This document shows positions 1,443 through 42,223 of a DNA stretch of 48,152 nt, one piece after another (the first letter of the stretch is position 1; each line of letters begins with the position of its first letter). Source of the DNA: a virus; IMG/VR virus record IMGVR_UViG_3300048837_000334, positions 1 to 48,152 of that record; one strand, 5' to 3'. The notes beneath the pieces are model-generated. The model was given only the letters and a program-made list of their open reading frames with translations, was not told where the DNA came from and did not search any database. Position numbers and translations under genes: made by a program.

Positions 1443-2507
1443 TCAGAACGTTTCGATGCGTCCGTCAGGGAGCACGCGCCGCACGGTCACGGTGCGCCCG
1501 TCGCGCGTCTTCACGCGGTCGCCGGGCTTGTACGGCACCGGCGCCGGCGGGGCCGCACCGCGCGTCGGCTGCCCGGTCGGCGCTCCACGGCCCACGACCA
1601 CCGGCGAGGCCGGCGTGCCCATGCTGCGCGGACGCCCCTCGCGGTCGGCGCGCAACTGCTGGTCTGCCCGATAGGCTTCATCCCCGGCCGCCGCGGCGCC
1701 GGCGTAGTCCTCCGGGCTGTCCCGTAGGTAGGCATCGAAGGCCCGCTGGTAGGCCCGCTCGGACGCATCAGCCGACGTGCGCCGCGACTGCCCGCGCGTC
1801 TCGCGCTCGGCCTCCCGCGTGCGCTGCAGCGTGTCGCTCAGCTTCAGGCGCCCGACGCTCTGTCCGTGGCTGTAGTCCTGCTGGCGCTTCCAGTCTTCAA
1901 ACTTCACGGTGCGCTGCCGCTCGGCCTCGGCCGCCCGGGTCTCCGGGTCCTGCCACTCGTCGCCGTACGTCGGGAGCTTGCCGACCTGCGCCGGCAGCCG
2001 GAGGTGTTCGGGCAGCGCCTCGATCGTGCGTCGCGCGTCGGCCTCCTGCTGGAAGGTCGCGCCCGCCTTCGCGATGCCGGCCTGGCGCGCCGCGTCCTGT
2101 GCGGCCGTGGGGCGCACGCCGGGCGTGCCCGTGCTCGAGGGGAGCACCGGCGACCCGATCGCTTCGAGGCCGAGCGGGTCCTCGACGACCTGCCGGTCTG
2201 TCGTCACGCGATGCCCGAGCCCGAGCCGCTGCGCCTCGTGCAGTTGATTCGGCGTCAGGCTGCCGCCCGGGCCGACGTCGTCGAGCATCTGCGCGTAACT
2301 GCCGCGCAGGTCGGCGTCCTCGAGGCGCTGCTGCGTGCGCTCCTGCAGGCCGAGCTGTCGCATGCGGATCTGGTCCTCGACGGCCTGCCGTGCCGCCAGC
2401 CGCCGCTGCTCCTCTTCGTCCTGCTTGCGCCGCTGGACGAGCCCGTACCCCTGCAGGCCCCCCTGCAAGGCGCCCATGAGGCCCGCCGCGAGATCGCTGC
2501 CTGCCAT
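1443..2507 (-). CDS. Putative internal virion protein, 354 aa
   Basis: I do not recognise the family. The N-terminus is glycine/alanine-rich and could insert in a membrane (residues 1-22). It is followed by a long, highly charged helical region rich in Gln, Arg and Glu, probably coiled coil. The last 30 residues contain 'YKPGDRVKTRDGRTVTVRRV', which looks like a small SH3- or KOW-type beta barrel. The gene sits between two other putative ejection proteins and just before the giant polyprotein gene, so an internal head or ejection role is inferred. A G-rich ribosome binding site (GGGGGCAGG) precedes ATG 2507. Confidence 0.7.
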   Translation of the reverse strand: MAGSDLAAGLMGALQGGLQGYGLVQRRKQDEEEQRRLAARQAVEDQIRMRQLGLQERTQQRLEDADLRGSYAQMLDDVGPGGSLTPNQLHEAQRLGLGHRVTTDRQVVEDPLGLEAIGSPVLPSSTGTPGVRPTAAQDAARQAGIAKAGATFQQEADARRTIEALPEHLRLPAQVGKLPTYGDEWQDPETRAAEAERQRTVKFEDWKRQQDYSHGQSVGRLKLSDTLQRTREAERETRGQSRRTSADASERAYQRAFDAYLRDSPEDYAGAAAAGDEAYRADQQLRADREGRPRSMGTPASPVVVGRGAPTGQPTRGAAPPAPVPYKPGDRVKTRDGRTVTVRRVLPDGRIETF

Positions 2508-2516
2508 CCTGCCCCC

Positions 2517-4484
2517 TTACAGGCCGTAGGCCCGGAACTGACTGTTGATGCCGAACTGCCGGGCCTGCTCCTGCAGGCGCGCGAGGTCGATGCCGGCACC
2601 GACGTCGAACTGGCGCCCGCCCTCGCGCAGTTGCGCGTGCGACAGTTCCATCTGCTGCTGCAGGGCGAGCAGACGGAACGCCAGATCGTCTTTGAATTCC
2701 GTGTTGGCGGTCGCCAGTTGCGTGAGGTCGAGATAGGCCGACAGGTCGATGTCGTACAGGTCGACGAGCTCACCCATCTTCGACGTGACCCAGTCCAGCA
2801 TCAGTTTGTCGCGGCTGATGCCGAGTTCGGCCGCGGCCTGCGCGCTGGCCTCACGGAGCGCCAGCCGGTCAGTCGCCGCCGCCGCCTGGTCGATCTGCAG
2901 CTTGGCCGCGTTGACGACGTTGTTGCTCTGAAGCTGCGCCGCATTGAAGACGTTCTGCTCGTTGGCGAGCGCCGCCTGCAACGCCTGCGCGCTGGCCGTC
3001 TGCTTGTTCGCCTCGCCCGCCTGCGCTTCCGCGAGGCGCCGACGGGAGACCGCATCGCCGTAGGCCGCGCCGATGTTGGCCGCCGCCTGGCGGTCGCCCA
3101 TGTTCGTGCGGGCGGCCTCGATGTCGATCGTGCGGTTGCCGCGCGAGATGGCTTCGTCGCGGTCACGGCGCGCGTTGAGGCGTTCGCTCGCCAGCCACGG
3201 GCTGCTGTCGATGCCCATGCCGTACCCGAGGCCGATCAGGTCTTCGTCGAGCATCTGCGCCTGCTGCGCCTGCTCCTCCCGGCTCGCGCCCTTCAGCATG
3301 TCGACGGTGCGCGCGTCGAGCGATTCCGGGTTGGCCAGCAACTGCTGGATGAGCGCCTGCGTCGCCGCTTCCGTGTCGGCGTCCATGTTCTCGAAGCCGC
3401 CGAACTGGTAGCCCGCCTGCACGGGCGTCGGCGTGTACCCGCCCATCTGGCCGAGCAGTGCCTCGTAGCTGGCCGACGGCAGGTCGTCGGTCGGAATGGC
3501 GCCCGGCGTGTAGCCCGTCGCCTCGGGCGTCCAGTCGGGCAGTGTCGGCGTGGTCGGCCGGGCGCCGGGGTTGATGGACGATGCCCCGCCGACGCCCGCA
3601 CCGGCCGGCAGGCTGAATGCCGCGGGCGCGTAGCCGCCCCCGCCACCCCCGCCGCCACTGTGGCCGCCCTCGGTCAGCCAGCCCCACGACGGGTTCGCCC
3701 CGCCAGCGCCGATGATGGTGTCGATGGTGCGGCCGTCCGGCAAGACGAGCTTGTCGAGGCGATCGGGATGTTCGAGCAGCTTGACCGTGCCGGGGCCGAA
3801 GACGCGGTCGATCTCGGCCATCGCCTGCCGCATGCCGTCGTTGGTCGGCGGGTACTTGTGCAGGATGGACTGCACCGCGCTGTCGCTGTACGGCTGCGTA
3901 CCGCCCCCGCCGGCCGTGGCCTGCGGCGCACCGACGGTGTAGCGGCGGCCGTCCACGACGAGCGTGTCGCCGTCCCACTTCACCTGATGGCCGGCGCCCT
4001 GCAGATCGCTGTAGACCTGTCGCGCGAGCTGGTCCTGCTTCATCGCGCGCTGCTGCGGGTCGGTCGTGCTCCCGAGGTCGGCGACCTGCCGCTGGTACTC
4101 GGACACACGCGCGTAGCCGCGCGCCTCCGGGCTCTGCTGCACGGCCTGCTGCGCGCCCTGCAGCCCGCCCGGGTTGGCCTGATGCGCGGCGAAGTCGTCG
4201 GGGCCGGCCGAGCGCCCGAGGAACTGCTCGTAGGAACTGTTCAGGGCTGCGCTGTCGGCGTCACTCCACCCGCCGACACCAGCCCCGCCCTCCGGGCTCG
4301 TCCCCCGCTGGCCCGTGCGCGGCGTGGCCTGCGACGGGTCGAAGGTCGGCGACGGGTTGATGGTCTTGTCGTAGGTGGCCTGCAGGTCGGCGCCCCACGG
4401 GTCGGCGCCGGTCTGGTAGTTCCCGCCGGTATTCGCGCCCCACGGGTCCTGCTGGTCCTGCTCCCACGGTGACTGCAGCGCCAT
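2517..4484 (-). CDS. Putative internal virion/ejection protein, 655 aa
   Basis: The N-terminal 60 residues are disordered and rich in Gln, Gly, Pro and Trp, with two 'DPWGA' repeats. A segment at about residues 80-120 ('SYEQFLGRSAGPDDFAAH') resembles the DUF4214-type short helical repeat found in large virion and surface proteins. A glycine run (about residues 270-285) forms a hinge. The C-terminal 300 residues are Ala/Gln/Leu-rich and predicted to be one long helical region, as in T7 gp15/gp16-type proteins. Position and composition suggest an ejectosome component; no enzyme motif is visible. Confidence 0.7.
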   Translation of the reverse strand: MALQSPWEQDQQDPWGANTGGNYQTGADPWGADLQATYDKTINPSPTFDPSQATPRTGQRGTSPEGGAGVGGWSDADSAALNSSYEQFLGRSAGPDDFAAHQANPGGLQGAQQAVQQSPEARGYARVSEYQRQVADLGSTTDPQQRAMKQDQLARQVYSDLQGAGHQVKWDGDTLVVDGRRYTVGAPQATAGGGGTQPYSDSAVQSILHKYPPTNDGMRQAMAEIDRVFGPGTVKLLEHPDRLDKLVLPDGRTIDTIIGAGGANPSWGWLTEGGHSGGGGGGGGYAPAAFSLPAGAGVGGASSINPGARPTTPTLPDWTPEATGYTPGAIPTDDLPSASYEALLGQMGGYTPTPVQAGYQFGGFENMDADTEAATQALIQQLLANPESLDARTVDMLKGASREEQAQQAQMLDEDLIGLGYGMGIDSSPWLASERLNARRDRDEAISRGNRTIDIEAARTNMGDRQAAANIGAAYGDAVSRRRLAEAQAGEANKQTASAQALQAALANEQNVFNAAQLQSNNVVNAAKLQIDQAAAATDRLALREASAQAAAELGISRDKLMLDWVTSKMGELVDLYDIDLSAYLDLTQLATANTEFKDDLAFRLLALQQQMELSHAQLREGGRQFDVGAGIDLARLQEQARQFGINSQFRAYGL

Positions 4485-4517
4485 GCGGCGCGTCCGTTTC
4501 TCCGGCCAGGAGACGGG

Positions 4518-5438
4518 TTACTGGTCGAACAGCGAATCGTAGCTCGGCGCCAACGCGGCCTGCGGTGTCGCCTGCCTCTGTAGTTGCCGCAGCACATACA
4601 ACAGACTGGCCTCGCCGACCCACCGATGGCCCGGCTGCCAGCCCTGGCCGCGCAGCATCTCGGTGATTTCATCGGGTGACGGCGAGCGCCCCTGTGTCTC
4701 CTGAATCTGCTGCGCGATGATCTGGCGCGCGTCCTCGACGCTGATGTCGGTCGCGGCGGTCTTGGCGTTCTTGGTCATCGCCCCAATGGCGCCGCCCACG
4801 AGCGCACCGCCTGCCATCGCCCACGGGCCGAACTTGGACATGGCCAGCCCGCCCTTGACTGCGCCACCGCCGACGCCGCCCGCCCCCTCGTTGCGCCGCG
4901 CCACACCCGCCAGCAGTGGCGTCGGGTCGAAGCCACTCGCGCCGGGCGCGCGTGTTGGCGTCGCACTCGTCCCGCCCCGTGGCACGGCAGTGCCCGGCGC
5001 CGGCGGCGGCCCGCCCATTGTGTTGAGGTCGAGGCCGCCCGTCTGTCCCCAGTTGTTCGGGTCGGTCATCGACGGGGCGCCCCGCCCGCTGGCGACGACG
5101 CCCTGCAGCCGCTTGGCGGCCTCGGCCATGTCGGGGTTTGCGGTGTACTCGAACCCGCCTGTGATGGTCGGGGCCTTCACGCCGGGGACGCTGATCTGCG
5201 GCGGCGTGTAGGCGCCGCGGGCAATCAGGTCGAGCGCCCCGAGCGACTGCGCCTGCGCGAGATGATGCCGGTAGGGGTTGAGTTCGGATTCGCGCACGGC
5301 CGCCTGATACCGGCGGTCGAGGTCGTTCTCCTCGCGCGCGTCCTCGCGATCCTCGCGGCGATTCCGGCTCGCGGAGTACGCACCGTAGGCGCCGATGGCG
5401 GCCGTCGCGGCCGGGAGTATCCAGTCACTTTTCGCCAT
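4518..5438 (-). CDS. Putative internal virion protein with N-terminal membrane segment, 306 aa
   Basis: Residues 6-23 ('WILPAATAAIGAYGAYSA') form a likely membrane segment, followed by a very charged helix (residues 25-50). The middle is Pro/Gly-rich. A second apolar, glycine-rich stretch (about residues 195-220, 'AMAGGALVGGAIGAMT') could insert in a membrane. The C-terminal 80 residues look like a compact helical domain. A small protein with membrane-active segments ahead of two larger helical proteins matches the order gp14-gp15-gp16 in T7-like ejectosomes; this is inference from order and composition. The start overlaps the preceding gene by 14 bases. Confidence 0.65.
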   Translation of the reverse strand: MAKSDWILPAATAAIGAYGAYSASRNRREDREDAREENDLDRRYQAAVRESELNPYRHHLAQAQSLGALDLIARGAYTPPQISVPGVKAPTITGGFEYTANPDMAEAAKRLQGVVASGRGAPSMTDPNNWGQTGGLDLNTMGGPPPAPGTAVPRGGTSATPTRAPGASGFDPTPLLAGVARRNEGAGGVGGGAVKGGLAMSKFGPWAMAGGALVGGAIGAMTKNAKTAATDISVEDARQIIAQQIQETQGRSPSPDEITEMLRGQGWQPGHRWVGEASLLYVLRQLQRQATPQAALAPSYDSLFDQ

Positions 5439-5706
5439 GATGGGCCGGTCCTCGTGCGGCGCTGATGTTGCTGGCCTCGATGGCCCGCGCCAGTTGGGCG
5501 TTGGTCGCTTCGAGCATCGTGAACGCCCGGGTGTTGTTGACGACGACTTCGCTGCTCTGCTCCGCGAGGTCCTTGCACGCCTGCGCGAGTTCGGCTTTCG
5601 CCTTCTTCGCCTCGAGGATGTCGCGGCGATAGAGCAGGAACATGAACACGGCGATGAGCCCCCCCACGCCGGTGCCCGCGATCGCTTTCAGGACTTCACT
5701 TTCCAT
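5425..5706 (-). CDS. Small membrane protein with coiled coil; holin candidate, 93 aa
   Basis: I chose ATG 5706 because the upstream sequence in this frame lies inside the neighbouring gene. Residues 8-25 are one hydrophobic membrane span, followed by a basic stretch ('YRRDILEAKKAKAEL') and then an amphipathic helix to the C-terminus. A single span plus charged helix fits class III-type holins, i-spanins or small virion membrane proteins. It sits next to another one-span protein (5696-6055), but the endolysin is about 10 kb away on the circle, so a lysis role is only a possibility. Confidence 0.6.
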   Translation of the reverse strand: MESEVLKAIAGTGVGGLIAVFMFLLYRRDILEAKKAKAELAQACKDLAEQSSEVVVNNTRAFTMLEATNAQLARAIEASNISAARGPAHHGEK

Positions 5707-6055
5707 CGGGCGCCGGCTCCGAGGCGGGTGGCTCCTCGCCCACTGGGATCGCCACGAGCCGGCCAGACTGGCGATCAATCCGAAACCCCGGATGTGCGGC
5801 CTCGATGGCCGCGAAGGTCGCCGCTTCGAGGCGGTCGATCTCGTCCTGTGCGGCTCGGGCCCGGAGTGGTCCCAGTATCGCACGGCAGGCATCGCCTTCC
5901 GCCTGCAACGCGGCCACTTGCCGCGCCAGCGCCAGCTTCTCCAGTCGCACGGTGTCGAGTTCCGTGTAGGCCCGTGGCTGCGACAGGGCGCTCACCGCGG
6001 AGGCGGCGAGGAGCGCGATCTGAATCGCCATCAGGGCGAGCATGGTGCGCTTCAT
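5696..6055 (-). CDS. One-span membrane or secreted coiled-coil protein, 119 aa
   Basis: The N-terminus 'MKRTMLALMAIQIALLAAS' has the basic-then-hydrophobic layout of a signal anchor or Sec leader, with a possible cleavage region near residues 22-26 (SALSQ). The rest is a heptad-like helix with one cysteine, then a short globular tail ending in Pro/Glu. This layout resembles Rz-type i-spanins, but no spanin partner with a lipobox was found. It overlaps the tail fibre gene (4 bases) and the small membrane gene (11 bases). Confidence 0.6.
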   Translation of the reverse strand: MKRTMLALMAIQIALLAASAVSALSQPRAYTELDTVRLEKLALARQVAALQAEGDACRAILGPLRARAAQDEIDRLEAATFAAIEAAHPGFRIDRQSGRLVAIPVGEEPPASEPAPDGK

Positions 6056-13270: not shown

Positions 13271-15100
13271 TTACCTGGTAGGAGCCTGGAAAATGAAGGC
13301 GTCGGCCTCTGTGAGGGCGTAGTCTTCAAGGACAACGAAATTGCGGAAGTACCCCACCATGTCCTCGGTCGTGGGGGCGGTTTGCGAGGTGTCAAAGTTC
13401 AAGTAGAAGGACGACAAGAATGGCCCCTTGGTGTACCAGGACATCGGGACCTGATACAGCAGGCGGCTGGGGACGGTGTCGCCCTCGCGCATGATCCAAC
13501 AGGTCTGCATGTTCCAGTAGCCATCCGCATCGCGCCCGTTATCGTTCAGGACGGTGACCCCGTACGTAGCATTCCAGTCTGTAAATGCGCTGGCCGGCTG
13601 GCGATAGCGGATTTCCCAAATGAATCGGTGCCACACGTTGGCGAGGACGCCGTACGCTTCCGCCCAGGGCTGGCCGGCCGGCGTGCCGGTCCCCTGTGGG
13701 AACGCGTTCGTACCTGACGGCCGCACGCGTTCCTTGGCGTACATGCCAGCGGGGAGGTAGTCCGTCGAGAATTCGTGTGTGATCTTGGCGACCTCGCCGT
13801 CGAGCGCGTACTGGAAATTGAACATCTGCGCGCAGTGATTCGACCCTCCCGCGTAGAGACGGACCCCCTTTGCGCCGGTAATAGGGCTCGGGTGTGTCCC
13901 GACATTGCGCCCCGTTTGAAACGACGCGTCGAGATAGAAGTCCACAACGAGAAGCTGTGTCCCAGTCGTACTCGCCACGAGTGGGACAGGGAACTTCAAG
14001 CTCTTGGCATTAGGGACGAGACTAACTGTGCCCTCGGGGATGAATAGTTTCGCCGCGTCCTGTGCGTCCGGAAAGGTATCGTTGTCAGGGTCGTACGTGT
14101 AGAAAGTGGACGGCCCCTGCGTGGTGACGTTCTGCAGCGAATCAAGCTGCGATTGACTCCGCAACGTCCACGACGCAACGCACTCAGGAAGGTCGGCCAG
14201 CGCCTCAAAGTATCCGTGGTCAGTGGTTGAGGGTTCAAGCACAGTCAGGGAGAACTCACGCACGTCCGTGCGCCCCTCTGTGTCTGTGACATGTAGCGTG
14301 AAGGTCGTCACAGCAGCAGCATCTGGCGTGCCAGTGATAGCACCACTCGACGCGTTCAGGCTCGCCCAGCTTGGCAGGGCGCCAGACAGCACCGACCACG
14401 TTCTCGCGCCGTACCCGCCCGACGCCTGTACCACTGACGCATACGCGGCGCCATTGACGCCTGGCGTCAGGCTCACTGTCGTAATCTGCAGGTCTGCGAC
14501 CTGATCCACGGTCAGATTCAGCACGCCACTGTCGGCCGCGGCTGCCGCCGCGTCGGTGACGCGGAACTCCAGCGGGGACGTCCCCGCTACCGTGGGCGTG
14601 CCTGACACGTCCGCGTTGTCCTGCGTAATACCAGCCGGCAAGGTGTCGTTCGGCGCCACACGACTCCACGTGTACGGCAGCGTACCGCCCGAGGCCTGCA
14701 GGGTGACGCTGAAGGGCTGGCCGCGTGTGACGGATGGCAGGCTCGTCGTCGTGACCGTCAGGCCAGAGGGGACGGCTTCCACCGTGAGCGTGATGCTGCC
14801 GCTGTCGGCGGTGTCTGGCGTCGGCGTGGCCGAGTCCGTCGCACGGATCGTGAGCCCGACACTGCCCGTGGAGGTCGGCGTGCCCGTGATGGTATCGCCC
14901 ACCAGCGCCAGCCCGAGCGCGTTCAGTGCCGCCTCGCCCGCGACGATGCTCCACGTCACCGCGCCCGTGCCGCCCGTCGACTGCAGCGTCACGCTGTACG
15001 CGACGCCCTCGTAGGCTGTCGGCAGCGACGACGTCAGCACCACCAGGTTCTCCGGTGGGGTTTCAGAGACGGGCGCGTAGACGCCGAGGACGTAGCTCAC
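13271..15100 (-). CDS. Putative tail spike/adhesin with three Ig-like (He_PIG-type) domains, 609 aa
   Basis: Residues about 20-110, 112-200 and 205-290 are three repeats of an Ig-like fold of the He_PIG class. Each begins near 'TSSLP' or 'TVSLTPG', contains 'SVTLQ..GGT' and 'TWS', and has a 'GTPT' turn. The C-terminal 310 residues form a different domain with many Trp, Tyr and Asn residues ('GYWNMQTCWIMREGD', 'WHRFIWEIRYR') resembling lectin- or polysaccharide-binding jelly rolls. Domains of this type usually bind cell-surface carbohydrate, so receptor binding or capsule recognition is likely. GC content and codon use look slightly less extreme in the C-terminal part, a possible sign of domain exchange; this is an impression from reading, not a calculation. 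Confidence 0.7.
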   Translation of the reverse strand: MSYVLGVYAPVSETPPENLVVLTSSLPTAYEGVAYSVTLQSTGGTGAVTWSIVAGEAALNALGLALVGDTITGTPTSTGSVGLTIRATDSATPTPDTADSGSITLTVEAVPSGLTVTTTSLPSVTRGQPFSVTLQASGGTLPYTWSRVAPNDTLPAGITQDNADVSGTPTVAGTSPLEFRVTDAAAAAADSGVLNLTVDQVADLQITTVSLTPGVNGAAYASVVQASGGYGARTWSVLSGALPSWASLNASSGAITGTPDAAAVTTFTLHVTDTEGRTDVREFSLTVLEPSTTDHGYFEALADLPECVASWTLRSQSQLDSLQNVTTQGPSTFYTYDPDNDTFPDAQDAAKLFIPEGTVSLVPNAKSLKFPVPLVASTTGTQLLVVDFYLDASFQTGRNVGTHPSPITGAKGVRLYAGGSNHCAQMFNFQYALDGEVAKITHEFSTDYLPAGMYAKERVRPSGTNAFPQGTGTPAGQPWAEAYGVLANVWHRFIWEIRYRQPASAFTDWNATYGVTVLNDNGRDADGYWNMQTCWIMREGDTVPSRLLYQVPMSWYTKGPFLSSFYLNFDTSQTAPTTEDMVGYFRNFVVLEDYALTEADAFIFQAPTR

Positions 15101-22383: not shown

Positions 22384-22679
22384 TCGGCGGGCATCATCGG
22401 CTCAGGAGGGGGCAGGGGCGCGTTCACTTCCGTGACGGCCAATGCCGACCAGATGCTCGGCCGGGGGCGGACCGAGGACGCCGCAGCGTCGGTGATGGGA
22501 GCGGAGATCGCGCCGAGCCGGACCAGGGTCTCGTCGCGGAAGCGGGCGTACTCGCGGGTCACGTCCTGCAGTTGCGCGCGCAGGGCAAGGTTGTCGTGCT
22601 CAAGGAAGGCACGGCGCTCGCGCTCGACGGCGAGGTCAAGCGTCAGGCGATGCCGTGTCCGGAACAGGAAGCTCAGCAT
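22380..22679 (-). CDS. Small coiled-coil protein before portal, 99 aa
   Basis: ATG 22679 was chosen because the earlier part of the frame lies in the neighbour. Residues 15-55 form a basic/acidic helix with heptad-like spacing ('ERERRAFLEHDNLALRAQL'); the C-terminus is Pro/Ala-rich and disordered. It overlaps the portal start by 4 bases. No function is recognised; a virion assembly helper is possible. Confidence 0.55.
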   Translation of the reverse strand: MLSFLFRTRHRLTLDLAVERERRAFLEHDNLALRAQLQDVTREYARFRDETLVRLGAISAPITDAAASSVRPRPSIWSALAVTEVNAPLPPPEPMMPAE

Positions 22680-23013
22680 GCGCGGTGCCGCCGTGAGTGT
22701 CGCACGGTGCAACGCGGGGGTCAAGAGGCCACCGTCGCAGCGCCTCAGTATGAGAGATCTGGCGCGACACCATGAGCCAGCCCACGGGGGACGGCTCCAT
22801 GAGCGATGTCGTGATAGACGGCGCATAGATCTCGCGCAGCAACCGGTCAATGTTCGCCAACTCGGTCGGCGTCAGGTGGGCCGACTCCAGGCCAGGCGCC
22901 ACCAGTGCGCCCACCGCCGCACTCGCGCCGAGGAACAGGAACGTGCGCCGGCTCACGCCGTCCTCGACGGGCGGCGGCGTGTCAGCGGTCAGCCACTTCG
23001 GGAGCCAGAGCAT
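22636..23013 (-). CDS. Small protein with twin-arginine-type leader, 125 aa
   Basis: Residues 21-41 read 'SRRTFLFLGASAAVGALVAP', matching the Tat consensus S-R-R-x-F-L-x followed by a weakly hydrophobic stretch. The leader is preceded by a 20-residue n-region containing two Trp residues. Just after it, 'LTPTELANIDRLLREIYAPS' resembles the N-terminal arm of many phage capsid proteins. The last 15 codons overlap the next gene in another frame. It may be an exported phage protein, or a virion protein whose membrane segment mimics a Tat signal. A start base is shared with the preceding stop (TGATG). Confidence 0.55.
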   Translation of the reverse strand: MLWLPKWLTADTPPPVEDGVSRRTFLFLGASAAVGALVAPGLESAHLTPTELANIDRLLREIYAPSITTSLMEPSPVGWLMVSRQISHTEALRRWPLDPRVAPCDTHGGTAHAELPVPDTASPDA

Positions 23014-24047: not shown

Positions 24048-24280
24048 GACTGCCGCTCCACGGTGAGGGTCCAGTGCGAGACGACACGGCTCCCGTCCTC
24101 ATACGTCTGCGCCACCGAGAACGTCGTGCCATTGTCGAAGGCGTGAATGCGCATGTTCCCGGCCGCGTCGAGTTCGATACCAGGCGGCGGCTCACCCACA
24201 AAGGCGCACGAGACCGCCTCGCGTCGCCAATCGAAGGTTTGCACCGTCGTGGCCGGCATGTCGAACGGATTGTCGCTCAT
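24044..24280 (-). CDS. Hypothetical protein after terminase, 78 aa
   Basis: ATG 24280 overlaps the terminase stop (ATGA) and was preferred over an upstream GTG. The sequence is a small beta-rich domain ('AGNMRIHAFDNGTTFSVAQT', 'SRVVSHWTLTVE') with no cysteine cluster or membrane span. No family recognised. Confidence 0.55.
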   Translation of the reverse strand: MSDNPFDMPATTVQTFDWRREAVSCAFVGEPPPGIELDAAGNMRIHAFDNGTTFSVAQTYEDGSRVVSHWTLTVERQS

Positions 24281-26679
24281 CCCTTCCCCCACGCCGGAAA
24301 CACCCCGCGGCGCCCCGGCTTCAGTTCGTGCCGTTTCTCGATGCGTTCCGCCTCGGCGCGGCTCAGCGGGTCGAGCGTCGCAAGGTCGGCCTGCAGCGCC
24401 AGCTTGCCGATGTCGAGCGGCTTGCCGACGGGCCGCGACTCGAAGAAGCGGCCGATGCTCTCGTAGCTGTTATGGACCAGCACGCCGTTGGCGAAGAATT
24501 CGTGCGCGTCGTCCACTTCGAGGTCATACACCGCTGCGGTTCCGCTGCGACGAACGGAAATAACACATAGGCTTCCCGCAGAGCCGGGCTCGGTCTCGCT
24601 TCGGCGTGAAGACGTCGCCGCAGACGTCGCAAGGCCGCGGTTGGATGGCCGGTCGTGCGTCTCGTGCGCGCTGATCGGCGGCTCGCCACGCACAGGGCCG
24701 AGAGCAGTAGAGACGAGGATGGGTTGCAGGCCGGGCCATGTACTCTCGGCCGCACTGTACGCACCGATACGCGACCGCAGGTTGCCCCAAGCGGACGCGA
24801 CTCGCAATCGCCATGTTGGCACGGCGTGAGGTGCGCTGCCGCTGGCTCGGGTGAACTGAGTGCATAGCGAGATGACGCGCCGCCGGCACCAGTTCCAGAT
24901 TATCCGGATGATTGTTCGCGGGGTCGCCGTCGCGATGATGGATATGGTGCCCTGCCGGGATGGAGCCGTGCAGGTCCATCCAGACCTGTCGATGCAAGCG
25001 AGGGCGTCCGCGCCGTCCGAAGTACCGCTCCATGCAGTAGTAGCGGACACCCCGCCACTCCTGAATCGTCGCGGAGATGACCGCCGGGGCTTCAGGCATG
25101 CAACATCATACACCATGATGCCCTCGGATAGTTCGTTGAGTCTTACCCATCCGCGATCCACGACCCACACGGGATGTTCGGACGTACCTGTGAGCACACG
25201 GCCGTCGGAGAGCGTCACGTCGTAGACCGGCGCGGCGTCCGCCTGCTTCCACGACGCCCGCACGCTGCGCCAGCCGCGGCGCGTCAACACGACGTCACCC
25301 GCCACCACCTCGCGTATAGCGACCTCACCACGCGCGGTCGTGATCAGCGTGCTCCCTACAAGGCAGTGATTCTCGCTGTCGCCGTCCTCGACTTCCGGGT
25401 CATCCTCATCCCACGGCACGCGCGGCACGGTGCGAATCAGGTGCGGGCACGCCGTCGTGCACGACCAGTGCGGCACGCCGTGCTCGCTCACGCTCAGGGC
25501 CGCCATCCATCGCTGCGGGCGGGACACGCGCGCCGCACGGCCACCGGCGCCTTGCTGCAGAGGGATGTGGAGCGGCTGGCCCAGGCCCTCATCGTACACC
25601 TCGGCGATGCTCTTGCCGATGCCCATTTCGCGGCGGCTGCCGAACATCACCGGCTCGAGCTCGATGTACTGTGGCCGCGCCATGCCGCGCGCCATGAACG
25701 CCTCGATGGTGACGCGCATGCGCTCGGCCTGCTCGACGTCCCGCACTTCCTGCTGATACCACTCGTGGAACGTGCGCATGTGGCCGTTGGGCAGGACTGC
25801 GTGCAGGTAGGCAGCCCACGGCGCCCCATACCCGTAGTCGACCGAGCCATAGATGACGGCCTCCTTCGGCGGAAACCACTGCGCGTCGTCGTACACGTGC
25901 CACGGGATGACCTGGCCCACCGTGCAGCCGATGCGCAGGAGATGCCCGTCCGTCTCGGTGACCGTGTGCGTGGGCTTCCACATCGCGCCGAGGATGTAGC
26001 CAGCGTTGCTCTCGAAGCTGGCCTCGTACTCCTGCAGAAATAGACGCAGCTGCCCGCGCTGCTCGTACTGGCGCCGGATGCCCGTCAGTTCGTCTTGCTT
26101 GTCGCGGTACAGCGGGCAGTCGGCCGTGGTGAACGTCCAGCTCGCCCAATCGGGATACGCCGGGTCCTGGCCCTGCTGATACAGCGTGTAGAAGTGGTCG
26201 TAGCCTTTCGGCGTCCCGAGGATCAGCGCCCAGCCGCCCGTGTCGAGCAGAGACGGCAAGATGATCTCGTCCCACAGGTTCTCTTTGGTGTCGGCGTACT
26301 CGTCAATGACGATGCCGGCGATACCGCGCCCACGCAGGCTGTCGGGATGGTCGGCCCCGTGCAGGGCGATGACGCTGCCATTGAGTAGTTCGATCTCGAG
26401 GCGGCTCTCGTTCGGCGGGCGCCGCAGCCACGAGCGCGGCACCATGTTGACGAGCACCTTCCACGCGATGTCACGGGCCTGCTTCAGTTCCGGCGCCAGA
26501 TACCAGTAGCGCCCAGGCGCCATGGCTGCGCTCAGCAGCAGGCAGATCACCCCGAGGATGGTCTTGCCCCACCGTCGGCCAGCGGCCACGACACGGAATC
26601 GCGCGGGAGACTCGAAGACTTGGCCCTGCTGCGCGTGCAGCTTCAGCAGCCGCTCGGTCGGGACGGTGGGCGCGCTCAC
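24277..26679 (-). CDS. terL: Large terminase subunit, interrupted by an intein (800 aa precursor, 501 aa mature)
   Basis: This is the motor that packages DNA through the portal and cuts it. GTG 26679 overlaps the small-terminase stop (GTGA). Walker A 'GRRWGKT' is at residues 34-40, Walker B 'VIDEY' at 124-128, and the coupling motif 'LGTPKG' near 154-159. A nuclease aspartate lies in 'YGSVDYGYG'. Residues 439-737 are an intein. The joined exteins read '...DSENH' + 'SYESIGRFF', which is the third nuclease motif (normally D-H-x-x-D-A), so the intein sits in the catalytic site and must be removed for activity. The usual second Asp of that motif appears to be Glu here. The frame stays open across the nested HNH gene. 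Confidence 0.9.
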   Translation of the reverse strand: MSAPTVPTERLLKLHAQQGQVFESPARFRVVAAGRRWGKTILGVICLLLSAAMAPGRYWYLAPELKQARDIAWKVLVNMVPRSWLRRPPNESRLEIELLNGSVIALHGADHPDSLRGRGIAGIVIDEYADTKENLWDEIILPSLLDTGGWALILGTPKGYDHFYTLYQQGQDPAYPDWASWTFTTADCPLYRDKQDELTGIRRQYEQRGQLRLFLQEYEASFESNAGYILGAMWKPTHTVTETDGHLLRIGCTVGQVIPWHVYDDAQWFPPKEAVIYGSVDYGYGAPWAAYLHAVLPNGHMRTFHEWYQQEVRDVEQAERMRVTIEAFMARGMARPQYIELEPVMFGSRREMGIGKSIAEVYDEGLGQPLHIPLQQGAGGRAARVSRPQRWMAALSVSEHGVPHWSCTTACPHLIRTVPRVPWDEDDPEVEDGDSENHCLVGSTLITTARGEVAIREVVAGDVVLTRRGWRSVRASWKQADAAPVYDVTLSDGRVLTGTSEHPVWVVDRGWVRLNELSEGIMVYDVACLKPRRSSPRRFRSGGVSATTAWSGTSDGADALACIDRSGWTCTAPSRQGTISIIATATPRTIIRIIWNWCRRRVISLCTQFTRASGSAPHAVPTWRLRVASAWGNLRSRIGAYSAAESTWPGLQPILVSTALGPVRGEPPISAHETHDRPSNRGLATSAATSSRRSETEPGSAGSLCVISVRRSGTAAVYDLEVDDAHEFFANGVLVHNSYESIGRFFESRPVGKPLDIGKLALQADLATLDPLSRAEAERIEKRHELKPGRRGVFPAWGKG
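24469..25365 (-). mobile_element. Intein in large terminase (299 aa)
   Basis: Block A is 'CLVGSTLITTARGEVAI' with Cys at position 1, block B is 'GTSEHPVWV' (the TxxH residues), and the C-terminal blocks are 'VYDLEVDDAHEFFANG' and 'VLVHN' followed by Ser as the +1 residue. These are the residues needed for protein splicing. The N-terminal splicing part is about 88 residues and the C-terminal part about 33. The roughly 178 codons between them are mainly an open but meaningless reading of an HNH gene in another frame, so the spliced intein would carry a non-conserved, Arg/Ser-rich linker. Confidence 0.9.
24524..25099 (-). CDS. HNH homing endonuclease nested out of frame in the terminase intein, 191 aa
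   Basis: An HNH core lies at residues 48-80 ('PAGHHIHHRDGDPANN', 'DNLELVPAARHLAMH'), preceded by 'RLHRQVWMDLHG', as in free-standing phage HNH_3-type enzymes. Two cysteine modules follow ('CVQCGREY...YCSRPC' and 'CDVCGDVF...LCGKPMC'), probable zinc ribbons that recognise DNA. A TGA lies three codons before ATG 25099 in the same frame, so it is not fused to the intein; its frame is shifted by -1. The last 15 codons overlap the real intein C-terminal part ('VISVRRSGTAA'). There is no strong Shine-Dalgarno at the ATG; GAGGG lies about 19 bases upstream, and reinitiation is possible. Confidence 0.85.
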   Translation of the reverse strand: MPEAPAVISATIQEWRGVRYYCMERYFGRRGRPRLHRQVWMDLHGSIPAGHHIHHRDGDPANNHPDNLELVPAARHLAMHSVHPSQRQRTSRRANMAIASRVRLGQPAVAYRCVQCGREYMARPATHPRLYCSRPCAWRAADQRARDARPAIQPRPCDVCGDVFTPKRDRARLCGKPMCYFRSSQRNRSGV

Positions 26680-26963
26680 TTCTCGATGACCACGCGCAGC
26701 ACCTCGAGCCCGCCTTCGACCTGCACGGTCTCCTTCGGCTTCCCGTAGGCGTAGTGCCATAGCATCGTCTCGACGGCTGGGTGCAGCTTGCCGGCGTCGA
26801 GCTTGGCCTGCAGGGCCGCCCGGTAGTCGCGCCCCTCCACGAGTTGGCGTGCGACCTCTCGCACTTCCTGCGTCACCTTGTTCGGCGTGCCCTTCGTGCG
26901 GCCCTGCTGGCCGCCGCGTTTCAGGTTGGCTAGGCTGCGCGGGTTGCTGCCTTTGCGGCTCAT
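26676..26963 (-). CDS. terS: Small terminase subunit, 95 aa
   Basis: The protein is helical and basic. 'GRTKGTPNKVTQEVREVARQ' matches the N-terminal DNA-binding region common in small terminases (a G-x-x-x-G-T/S-x-N-K-x-T pattern) and is followed by a helical oligomerisation region. ATG 26963 has GGAG six bases upstream and overlaps the stop of the PEP-CTERM gene (ATGA). The stop overlaps the large-terminase GTG. Short for the family (often 140-180 residues), but the order and coupling make it the best candidate. Confidence 0.75.
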   Translation of the reverse strand: MSRKGSNPRSLANLKRGGQQGRTKGTPNKVTQEVREVARQLVEGRDYRAALQAKLDAGKLHPAVETMLWHYAYGKPKETVQVEGGLEVLRVVIEK

Positions 26964-27295
26964 CGTCGTCTCCATCCGGCCAGGAGGAGCGCCGTCGCCA
27001 GTAGTATCGCCGTACTCGGCTCCGGCACGGGCTGCACGTCTGCCGCGTGCCCATCGGTCCATGCCGACCACGACGCCAGCGGCACGGGCCCCACCGTCAG
27101 GGGCGGTAGTTCGTCCTCGATGCGCGGGCCCAGCGTCTCGAACACCGGCGCGCCCCACGCAGCCAGCACCTCCGGCGACAGCGGACCGACCGGCGGCGTC
27201 GGGTCGTAGGGGTTGGCCGTCGGCCCGTCAGGCAGCAACATGCCGGCACAGGTCTGCCGGGCGGTCGCGGGATCGTAGGGGTTACAGCCGGCCAT
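26960..27295 (-). CDS. PEP-CTERM-tailed protein coupled to small terminase, 111 aa
   Basis: The C-terminus is 'VPEPSTAILLATALLL' followed by 'AGWRRR': a PEP motif, a hydrophobic span and an arginine cluster, the exact layout of PEP-CTERM sorting tails recognised by exosortase in Gram-negative bacteria. The rest has two 'NPYDP' repeats, two cysteines and a Pro-rich region. There is no N-terminal signal peptide: a TAG lies two codons before the ATG at 27295, so it cannot be extended. Its stop TGA overlaps the small-terminase ATG. It could be a host-derived cargo, a membrane anchor or a decoy for the host exosortase; the role is unknown. Confidence 0.75.
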   Translation of the reverse strand: MAGCNPYDPATARQTCAGMLLPDGPTANPYDPTPPVGPLSPEVLAAWGAPVFETLGPRIEDELPPLTVGPVPLASWSAWTDGHAADVQPVPEPSTAILLATALLLAGWRRR

Positions 27296-27485
27296 CGGCT
27301 ACCTTTCGGGTTCTGTGTCCGGCCACCCACCGCCCCTGCGCGTCCCGCTGCTGTCGCTGCGTGCGGAGGTGGCGGGCGTGTCGTTCGGCCTGCTGCTGGC
27401 GCCGGAGGTCGGCGTCACGCGCGGCCTGCTGGACGGCGAGGCGGCGCAGGGTGAGGGCGGCGCGGCGGACGTGTTGCGGCGTCAT
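27282..27485 (-). CDS. Small basic helical protein, 67 aa
   Basis: ATG 27485 overlaps the preceding stop (ATGA). The sequence is Arg/Gln/Ala-rich, almost all one helix ('RRLAVQQAARDADLRRQQQA'), then 'DAQGRWVAGH'. It may bind nucleic acid; no family recognised. The 3' end overlaps the PEP-CTERM gene start by 14 bases. Confidence 0.5.
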   Translation of the reverse strand: MTPQHVRRAALTLRRLAVQQAARDADLRRQQQAERHARHLRTQRQQRDAQGRWVAGHRTRKVADGRL

Positions 27486-40972: not shown

Positions 40973-42055
40973 ATGGGCGTCTACACGCGGCAGGACTCGC
41001 CCTGGTACTGGCTGTGGCTCGAACGCCCCGGCCGCCCCGCCCTCCGCGAAAAGACCCGCATCCCCGTGCACGCGCCGACGGCTCTGCAGCGCAAGACCCA
41101 GCGCGCGCAGGCTGAGGATGCCTACCGCGCCCGCATGGGCGAACTCGCCCGCGCCGGCTACGACCTGCCGACCGCGCTCCCCGCGCGCACCTTCGCCGCC
41201 CTGGCGGACTGGTACGAGACCCACGTCACCGCCCACAAGCGCGGCGCCGCCCGTGAGCGCGAGATTCTGCAGCAGCTCCGCAAGCACTTCGGCCCGCTGC
41301 AACTGGCCGACCTGACGCTGGCTCACGTCCGCGAGTGGATGACCGCGCGCCGTGCCGAGAAGGTCCCCCGCTCGTCGCGCACGGTGAGCGTGGCCACGGT
41401 GAACCGGGAACTCGACGTGCTGAAACATGTCCTCGGGTCCGCTGTACCGACGTACCTCGACGCGAATCCGCTCATTGGCCTGAAGCGCCTGCGTGCGCCG
41501 CTCGAACCCATGCGCGTGCTCGCCCACGACGAAGAGCGCCGCCTGCTGGCGGCCGTGCACGACGCGCGCGACCGTGCGCTGCTCGTGGCCGGGCTCGACA
41601 CGATCGCGCGCCTCGGCTCGCTGCTGGCGCTCGAGTGGCGTGACGACCACGGCGACCATCTCGAGTTCCGCAACCCGAAGGCGGGGCCGTCCTACCGCGT
41701 GCCCGTCTCCGCGCGCCTGCGCGCCGCCCTCGATGCCCTGCCCGTCGACGAGCGGGGCCGATACATCTTCGCGCACCGCCGTACCACGAAGGACCCGGAA
41801 GGCTGGCGGAACGCCGTCAAGCTGATGCTGCGGCGAGCGTGTGCCCGCGCCGGCATCCCCTACGGGCGCGCACGGGGCGGCATCACCTTCCATGCCCTGC
41901 GCCACACGGGCGCGACGCGGATGATTGCCGCCGGGGTCGACCTGCGCACGGTGCAGGAACTCGGCGGCTGGTCGTCCCTGCGCCAGCTCGCCCGCTACGC
42001 CCACCCGACCGCCGACGCCAAGCGCCGGGCCGTCGAGACCGTGAGTGAGGCGTGA
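40973..42055 (+). CDS. int: Tyrosine recombinase integrase, 360 aa
   Basis: Catalytic residues: R213 in 'LDTIARLGSLLALEW', H307 and R310 in 'TFHALRHTG', W333 in place of His in 'LGGWSS', and the nucleophile Y342 in 'RYAHP'. An N-terminal arm-binding region (residues 1-60) and a core-binding SAM-like domain (70-170) precede them. It inserts the phage into the host genome; the attP candidate lies just downstream. ATG 40973 directly follows the TAA of the membrane gene, with no strong Shine-Dalgarno, so coupled translation is likely. Confidence 0.95.
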   Translation: MGVYTRQDSPWYWLWLERPGRPALREKTRIPVHAPTALQRKTQRAQAEDAYRARMGELARAGYDLPTALPARTFAALADWYETHVTAHKRGAAREREILQQLRKHFGPLQLADLTLAHVREWMTARRAEKVPRSSRTVSVATVNRELDVLKHVLGSAVPTYLDANPLIGLKRLRAPLEPMRVLAHDEERRLLAAVHDARDRALLVAGLDTIARLGSLLALEWRDDHGDHLEFRNPKAGPSYRVPVSARLRAALDALPVDERGRYIFAHRRTTKDPEGWRNAVKLMLRRACARAGIPYGRARGGITFHALRHTGATRMIAAGVDLRTVQELGGWSSLRQLARYAHPTADAKRRAVETVSEA

Positions 42056-42151: not shown

Positions 42152-42173
42152 CACGATTTCCGCCTGTTTTCGG

Positions 42174-42223
42174 TGGTGGACGGCAGGAGGCTCGAACTCC
42201 CGACCTCCGCGTTGCGAACGCGG
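42174..42223. other. attP: attP core: 3' part of a tRNA-Ala(CGC) gene
   Basis: Read on the minus strand, this is the 3' half of a tRNA: anticodon stem CCGCG/CGCGG with loop TTCGCAA (anticodon CGC), variable bases, T-arm, acceptor strand GCCGTCC, discriminator A and CCA. The position-70 base is U, as needed for the G3:U70 pair that marks tRNA-Ala. No 5' half follows, so it is not a whole tRNA. Integration here would rebuild the host tRNA gene. The match and its place next to int make it the attachment core. Confidence 0.85.

Follow-up and report, generated by a model that had tools for sequence, protein, structure and literature searches.

The window, that is, the 48,152-nucleotide stretch of DNA analysed here, corresponds to an entire IMG/VR virus record; it has a 127-bp direct terminal repeat and a G+C content of 69%. 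It encodes a P22-like portal, a major head protein, a tyrosine integrase (40973..42055, plus strand) and a DUF3307 protein, and between the left end and ~39.5 kb nearly all genes lie on the minus strand. Searches of IMG/VR with the portal, the large terminase (TerL) and the MCP returned nothing, distant TerLs or a single close relative, IMGVR_UViG_3300037462_000270, hereafter the sister phage, whose TerL, MCP and small terminase (TerS) are 82%, 76% and 61% identical, respectively. This brings the known phages of the group to two.

A gene on the minus strand (26960..27295), immediately upstream of the packaging genes, encodes a 111-aa protein that ends in a PEP-CTERM tail (VPEPSTAILLATALLLAGWRRR) and has no signal peptide. 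As the initial annotation had pointed out, its TGA stop (26962-26960) overlaps the ATG (26963-26961) of the putative small terminase gene, terS (26676..26963, minus strand), by 4 bp in an ATGA arrangement. The putative TerS, for which PHROG and Pfam gave no family match of note, is encoded directly before terL (24277..26679, minus strand). The latter is interrupted by an intein (24469-25365, minus strand; CLVGSTL...VHN) missing from the sister phage. Nested in this intein, with its own ATG and in a frame that differs from that of TerL, is an HNH-endonuclease-like ORF (24524-25099, minus strand), which is unusual unless it stems from paired frameshift errors.

On its other side, the PEP gene is overlapped by 14 bp at its start by a short ORF (27282..27485, minus strand). 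Its ATG is preceded by a Shine-Dalgarno-like GAAAGG, the G+C fractions at its three codon positions are 0.73/0.61/0.84, and a narrow scan found no sigma-70-like promoter of its own. Since an in-frame stop stands two codons upstream of the ATG (TAG CCG ATG), a longer N-terminus is impossible in that frame.

The full PEP-CTERM layout originally described for the C-terminus was confirmed by family models. Pfam PF07589 matches residues 89-111 (26963..27031, minus strand) with 25.4 bits (cut-off 20.7) and TIGR02595 scores 25.2 bits (cut-off 16); the Pro-Glu-Pro motif, the transmembrane helix and the basic C-terminal cluster are all present. The model of the MHFG family, NF038119, reached 15.1 bits over the tail region only, far from its cut-off of 100. 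The stated absence of an N-terminal signal peptide stood as well: by hydropathy, the only measure used here, there is no hydrophobic N-terminal segment, the 12-residue maximum being 1.11 in the N-terminal part versus 2.47 in the tail. About 97% of PEP-CTERM proteins bear signal peptides (PMC1569441), and the lack of one makes this protein an atypical family member. Its body is acidic and proline-rich (10 D/E versus 2 K/R) and has no known homologues. AlphaFold2, run on an input of two sequences, gave a low-confidence, mostly disordered model (mean pLDDT 51), in which the tail is predicted to form a single transmembrane helix at residues 95-110 (local pLDDT ~82).

The PEP-CTERM tail is genuine and does not arise by chance. 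A rule requiring PEP, a hydrophobic stretch and at least two R/K at the end picked out this ORF in the window and one ORF in the sister phage, against two matches among 116,051 ORF tails from 200 shuffled windows; among 9,452 ORF tails from other viral loci, the single match was a true PEP-CTERM protein. PF07589 did not exceed its cut-off in any of 50 other viral records or 14 named control genomes, and since these 50 records had been preselected by a PEP-like DNA pattern, the test leans against the tail being special. No direct relatives of the protein were found in IMG/VR, and a search of INPHARED phages gave three Mycobacterium phage matches only, at an E value of 2, which we take as chance. 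Queries with the tail by tblastn returned no matches, which carries little information, as low-complexity filtering may have stripped the tail from the query.

In the sister phage, a 106-aa ORF upstream of terS (L002:1806-2126) also ends in a PEP-CTERM tail (DVPEPSVLLLVALGAAAWRARR; PF07589 29.4 bits, above cut-off; TIGR02595 20.1 bits, cut-off 16) and also lacks a signal peptide; its start sits within the end of the upstream neighbour gene. Its body is likewise acidic and proline-rich (13 D/E versus 5 K/R); the two bodies have no detectable similarity (local score 36 versus a shuffle mean of 33, p ~0.3). The whole-length comparison is significant (p 0.002 versus shuffles) because of the tail. 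Within these otherwise diverged proteins, the longest identical run is VPEPS, the codons of which differ at 1 of 15 nucleotides between the two phages, consistent with a common origin of the tail. Homologues sharing the N-terminal part and lacking the tail, which the initial annotation had named as counter-evidence, were not seen; the sister phage presents the opposite case, with the tail kept and the body changed. The idea that the gene is specially coupled to the small terminase was not supported. Its counterpart in the sister phage is separated from terS by ~410 bases that contain short ORFs, so the ATGA overlap looks like ordinary compact packing and the link to terS is incidental. The tail and the operon position are kept between the two phages; the terS coupling is not.

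To approach the host, we considered a 54-bp block beside the integrase (42168..42221, minus strand), of which 53 positions are shared by the two phages, whose sequences on either side of it cannot be aligned. The block corresponds to the 3' half of a tRNA-Ala(CGC) and carries U70, the position required by the alanine G3:U70 pair; therefore, it is likely the attP core. Another tRNA-Ala call in the window (1988-2081, minus strand), located within a long ORF, is probably spurious. A 42-base stretch of the candidate attP core had 33 genomic matches, nearly all in Acidobacteriota, including Luteitalea and Vicinamibacterales, which suggests soil Acidobacteria as the likely host group. Among ten genomes carrying the attP-core sequence, exosortase scored above cut-off in five and PEP-CTERM proteins were present in six, making it plausible that the needed host machinery is there and likely that the host group bears exosortase. 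Most of the readable PEP-CTERM proteins of these genomes have signal-peptide-like N-termini and the same kind of tail. The phage itself encodes no exosortase. A TerL search of genomes, including 193 of the class of G008, revealed no related prophage. No PEP-CTERM tail was present on six further contigs that share this attP core, hence phages using the site do not generally have it. On one of these contigs (G202), a PF07589 match of 15.5 bits, below cut-off and on the strand opposite to a 229-aa ORF, was rejected.

We found no description of phage-encoded PEP-CTERM proteins in open papers. A broad PEP-tail DNA pattern retrieved 120 loci with one true tail, and a strict pattern scan of IMG/VR retrieved 24 loci with ~14 true tails on viral contigs, mostly in proteins with signal peptides. 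Phage-borne PEP-CTERM proteins thus recur. Apart from the three described next, some of these genes could be host flanks of prophages. Two contigs, which also carry phage helicase and tail genes, encode proteins of the MHFG family (NF038119, 172 and 244 bits, cut-off 100): L107 (118 kb; 4150-4854, plus strand) and L198 (49 kb; 2045-2716, plus strand). Like the 111-aa protein, they are encoded alongside phage genes and have a proline-rich linker that leads into the PEP-CTERM tail, but they share a conserved MHFG domain that is not present in the window protein and that had no match in INPHARED phages. On L206, a PEP-CTERM gene (13527-14309, minus strand) occupies a moron position: it is flanked by terL and the next rightward ORF and runs on the opposite strand. 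It resembles our gene in adjoining terminase genes in a phage, but differs in its opposite strand, its clear signal peptide, its unrelated body and the different phage group. Proteins of L184, L186 and L189 resemble that of L206, and the four may form a recurrent phage moron family.

Considering these results, we tentatively propose, at a little short of an even chance, that the 111-aa protein is a small phage membrane protein using the PEP-CTERM/exosortase address tag of its host, by which such bacteria direct proteins to their surface. Judging from the operon position, it would be produced late, together with the packaging genes. The C-terminal helix would insert into the inner membrane so that the RRR end faces the cytoplasm and the acidic, proline-rich body lies outside. 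According to the positive-inside rule, basic residues stay cytoplasmic, so that arginines following the helix and an acidic body would give an N-out/C-in topology, the same as that of a normal PEP-CTERM protein after signal-peptide cleavage. The signal peptide could be replaced by direct translocation of the N-tail by YidC/Sec, as for the Pf3 coat protein, which inserts into the membrane N-out and without a signal peptide. This resemblance would be functional only and would concern the route (a single helix, N-out, signal-less); the N-tail of Pf3 is much shorter and bears no sorting tag. The published model has EpsH/exosortase bind the PEP motif on the outer side of the inner membrane (PMC1569441), and the topology proposed here would place PEP at that very site. 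The host exosortase would then recognise PEP and cut there, leaving a body of ~90 residues at the envelope or exopolysaccharide; alternatively, the exosortase itself may be kept busy by the protein. The net effect would be an altered host surface during infection, which is the least certain step.

In favour of the address tag, the protein of the sister phage has diverged in its body but still has the tail, still lacks a signal peptide and is still encoded upstream of terS, and a tail kept while the body changed looks used. The rarity of the tail in the viral records and control genomes, the exosortase and PEP-CTERM proteins of the genomes with the attP core, the acidic bodies and the PEP-CTERM proteins on other viral contigs point the same way. 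On the other hand, the group consists of two phages, the six contigs with the same attP lack the tail, and no exosortase was seen in half of the sampled candidate host genomes (draft MAGs). The main weakness is that, with signal peptides on ~97% of PEP-CTERM proteins, a signal-less one may never be exported. The tail may instead be a plain membrane anchor taken over from a host PEP-CTERM gene. In that case, exosortase would not act on it, since the body would never be exported, and the protein would work at the inner face of the membrane, for instance in exclusion or as a tether for a phage process. Neither phage's protein has a signal peptide, and one predicted hydrophobic helix with arginines would suffice for anchoring. 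However, an anchor does not need Pro-Glu-Pro, and yet VPEPS is precisely what the two proteins share best; we regard this explanation as possible, if rather unlikely.

It is unlikely, in our opinion, that the gene is a decayed relic, namely what is left of a full PEP-CTERM gene of host origin after loss of its signal peptide and domain, now drifting in a compact operon with no function. A body that is not conserved, the missing signal peptide and the low-confidence, mostly disordered model would suit such a relic, but in both phages the gene has a ribosome-binding site, the frames are open and comparable in length (111 and 106 aa), and the tail persisted although the body changed. In lambda- and P22-like phages, lysis genes commonly lie just upstream of terS, and a small holin- or antiholin-like membrane protein, with a secondary resemblance to PEP-CTERM, would match the position of the gene and the predicted single transmembrane helix. 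This would leave PEP unexplained, and other candidates are found at 5425-6055 (minus strand), where two small proteins conserved in the sister phage (44-60%) each have one hydrophobic segment on the N-terminal side and a charged remainder, possibly holin/spanin genes. We deem a lysis function highly unlikely.

Returning to the address tag, what is new here is a signal-less PEP-CTERM-tailed phage protein within a packaging operon; compared with the PEP-CTERM proteins of exosortase-bearing bacteria, it is phage-encoded. One may speculate, although we hold it to be quite improbable, that phages of exosortase-bearing bacteria make late, signal-less, N-out PEP-CTERM substrates that occupy or redirect exosortase and thereby change the surface or matrix of the host, favouring release or blocking superinfection. 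If phages tap the exosortase pathway, it would be a phage-host battleground linked to the biofilm and floc matrix. The phage protein would then also offer a minimal, 111-residue substrate for asking whether exosortase needs a signal peptide.

Elsewhere in the window, a 125-aa protein without Pfam or PHROG match (22636-23013, minus strand) has a twin-arginine-like N-terminal segment, SRRTFLFLGASAAVGALVAPG, possibly a second host export signal in the same phage.
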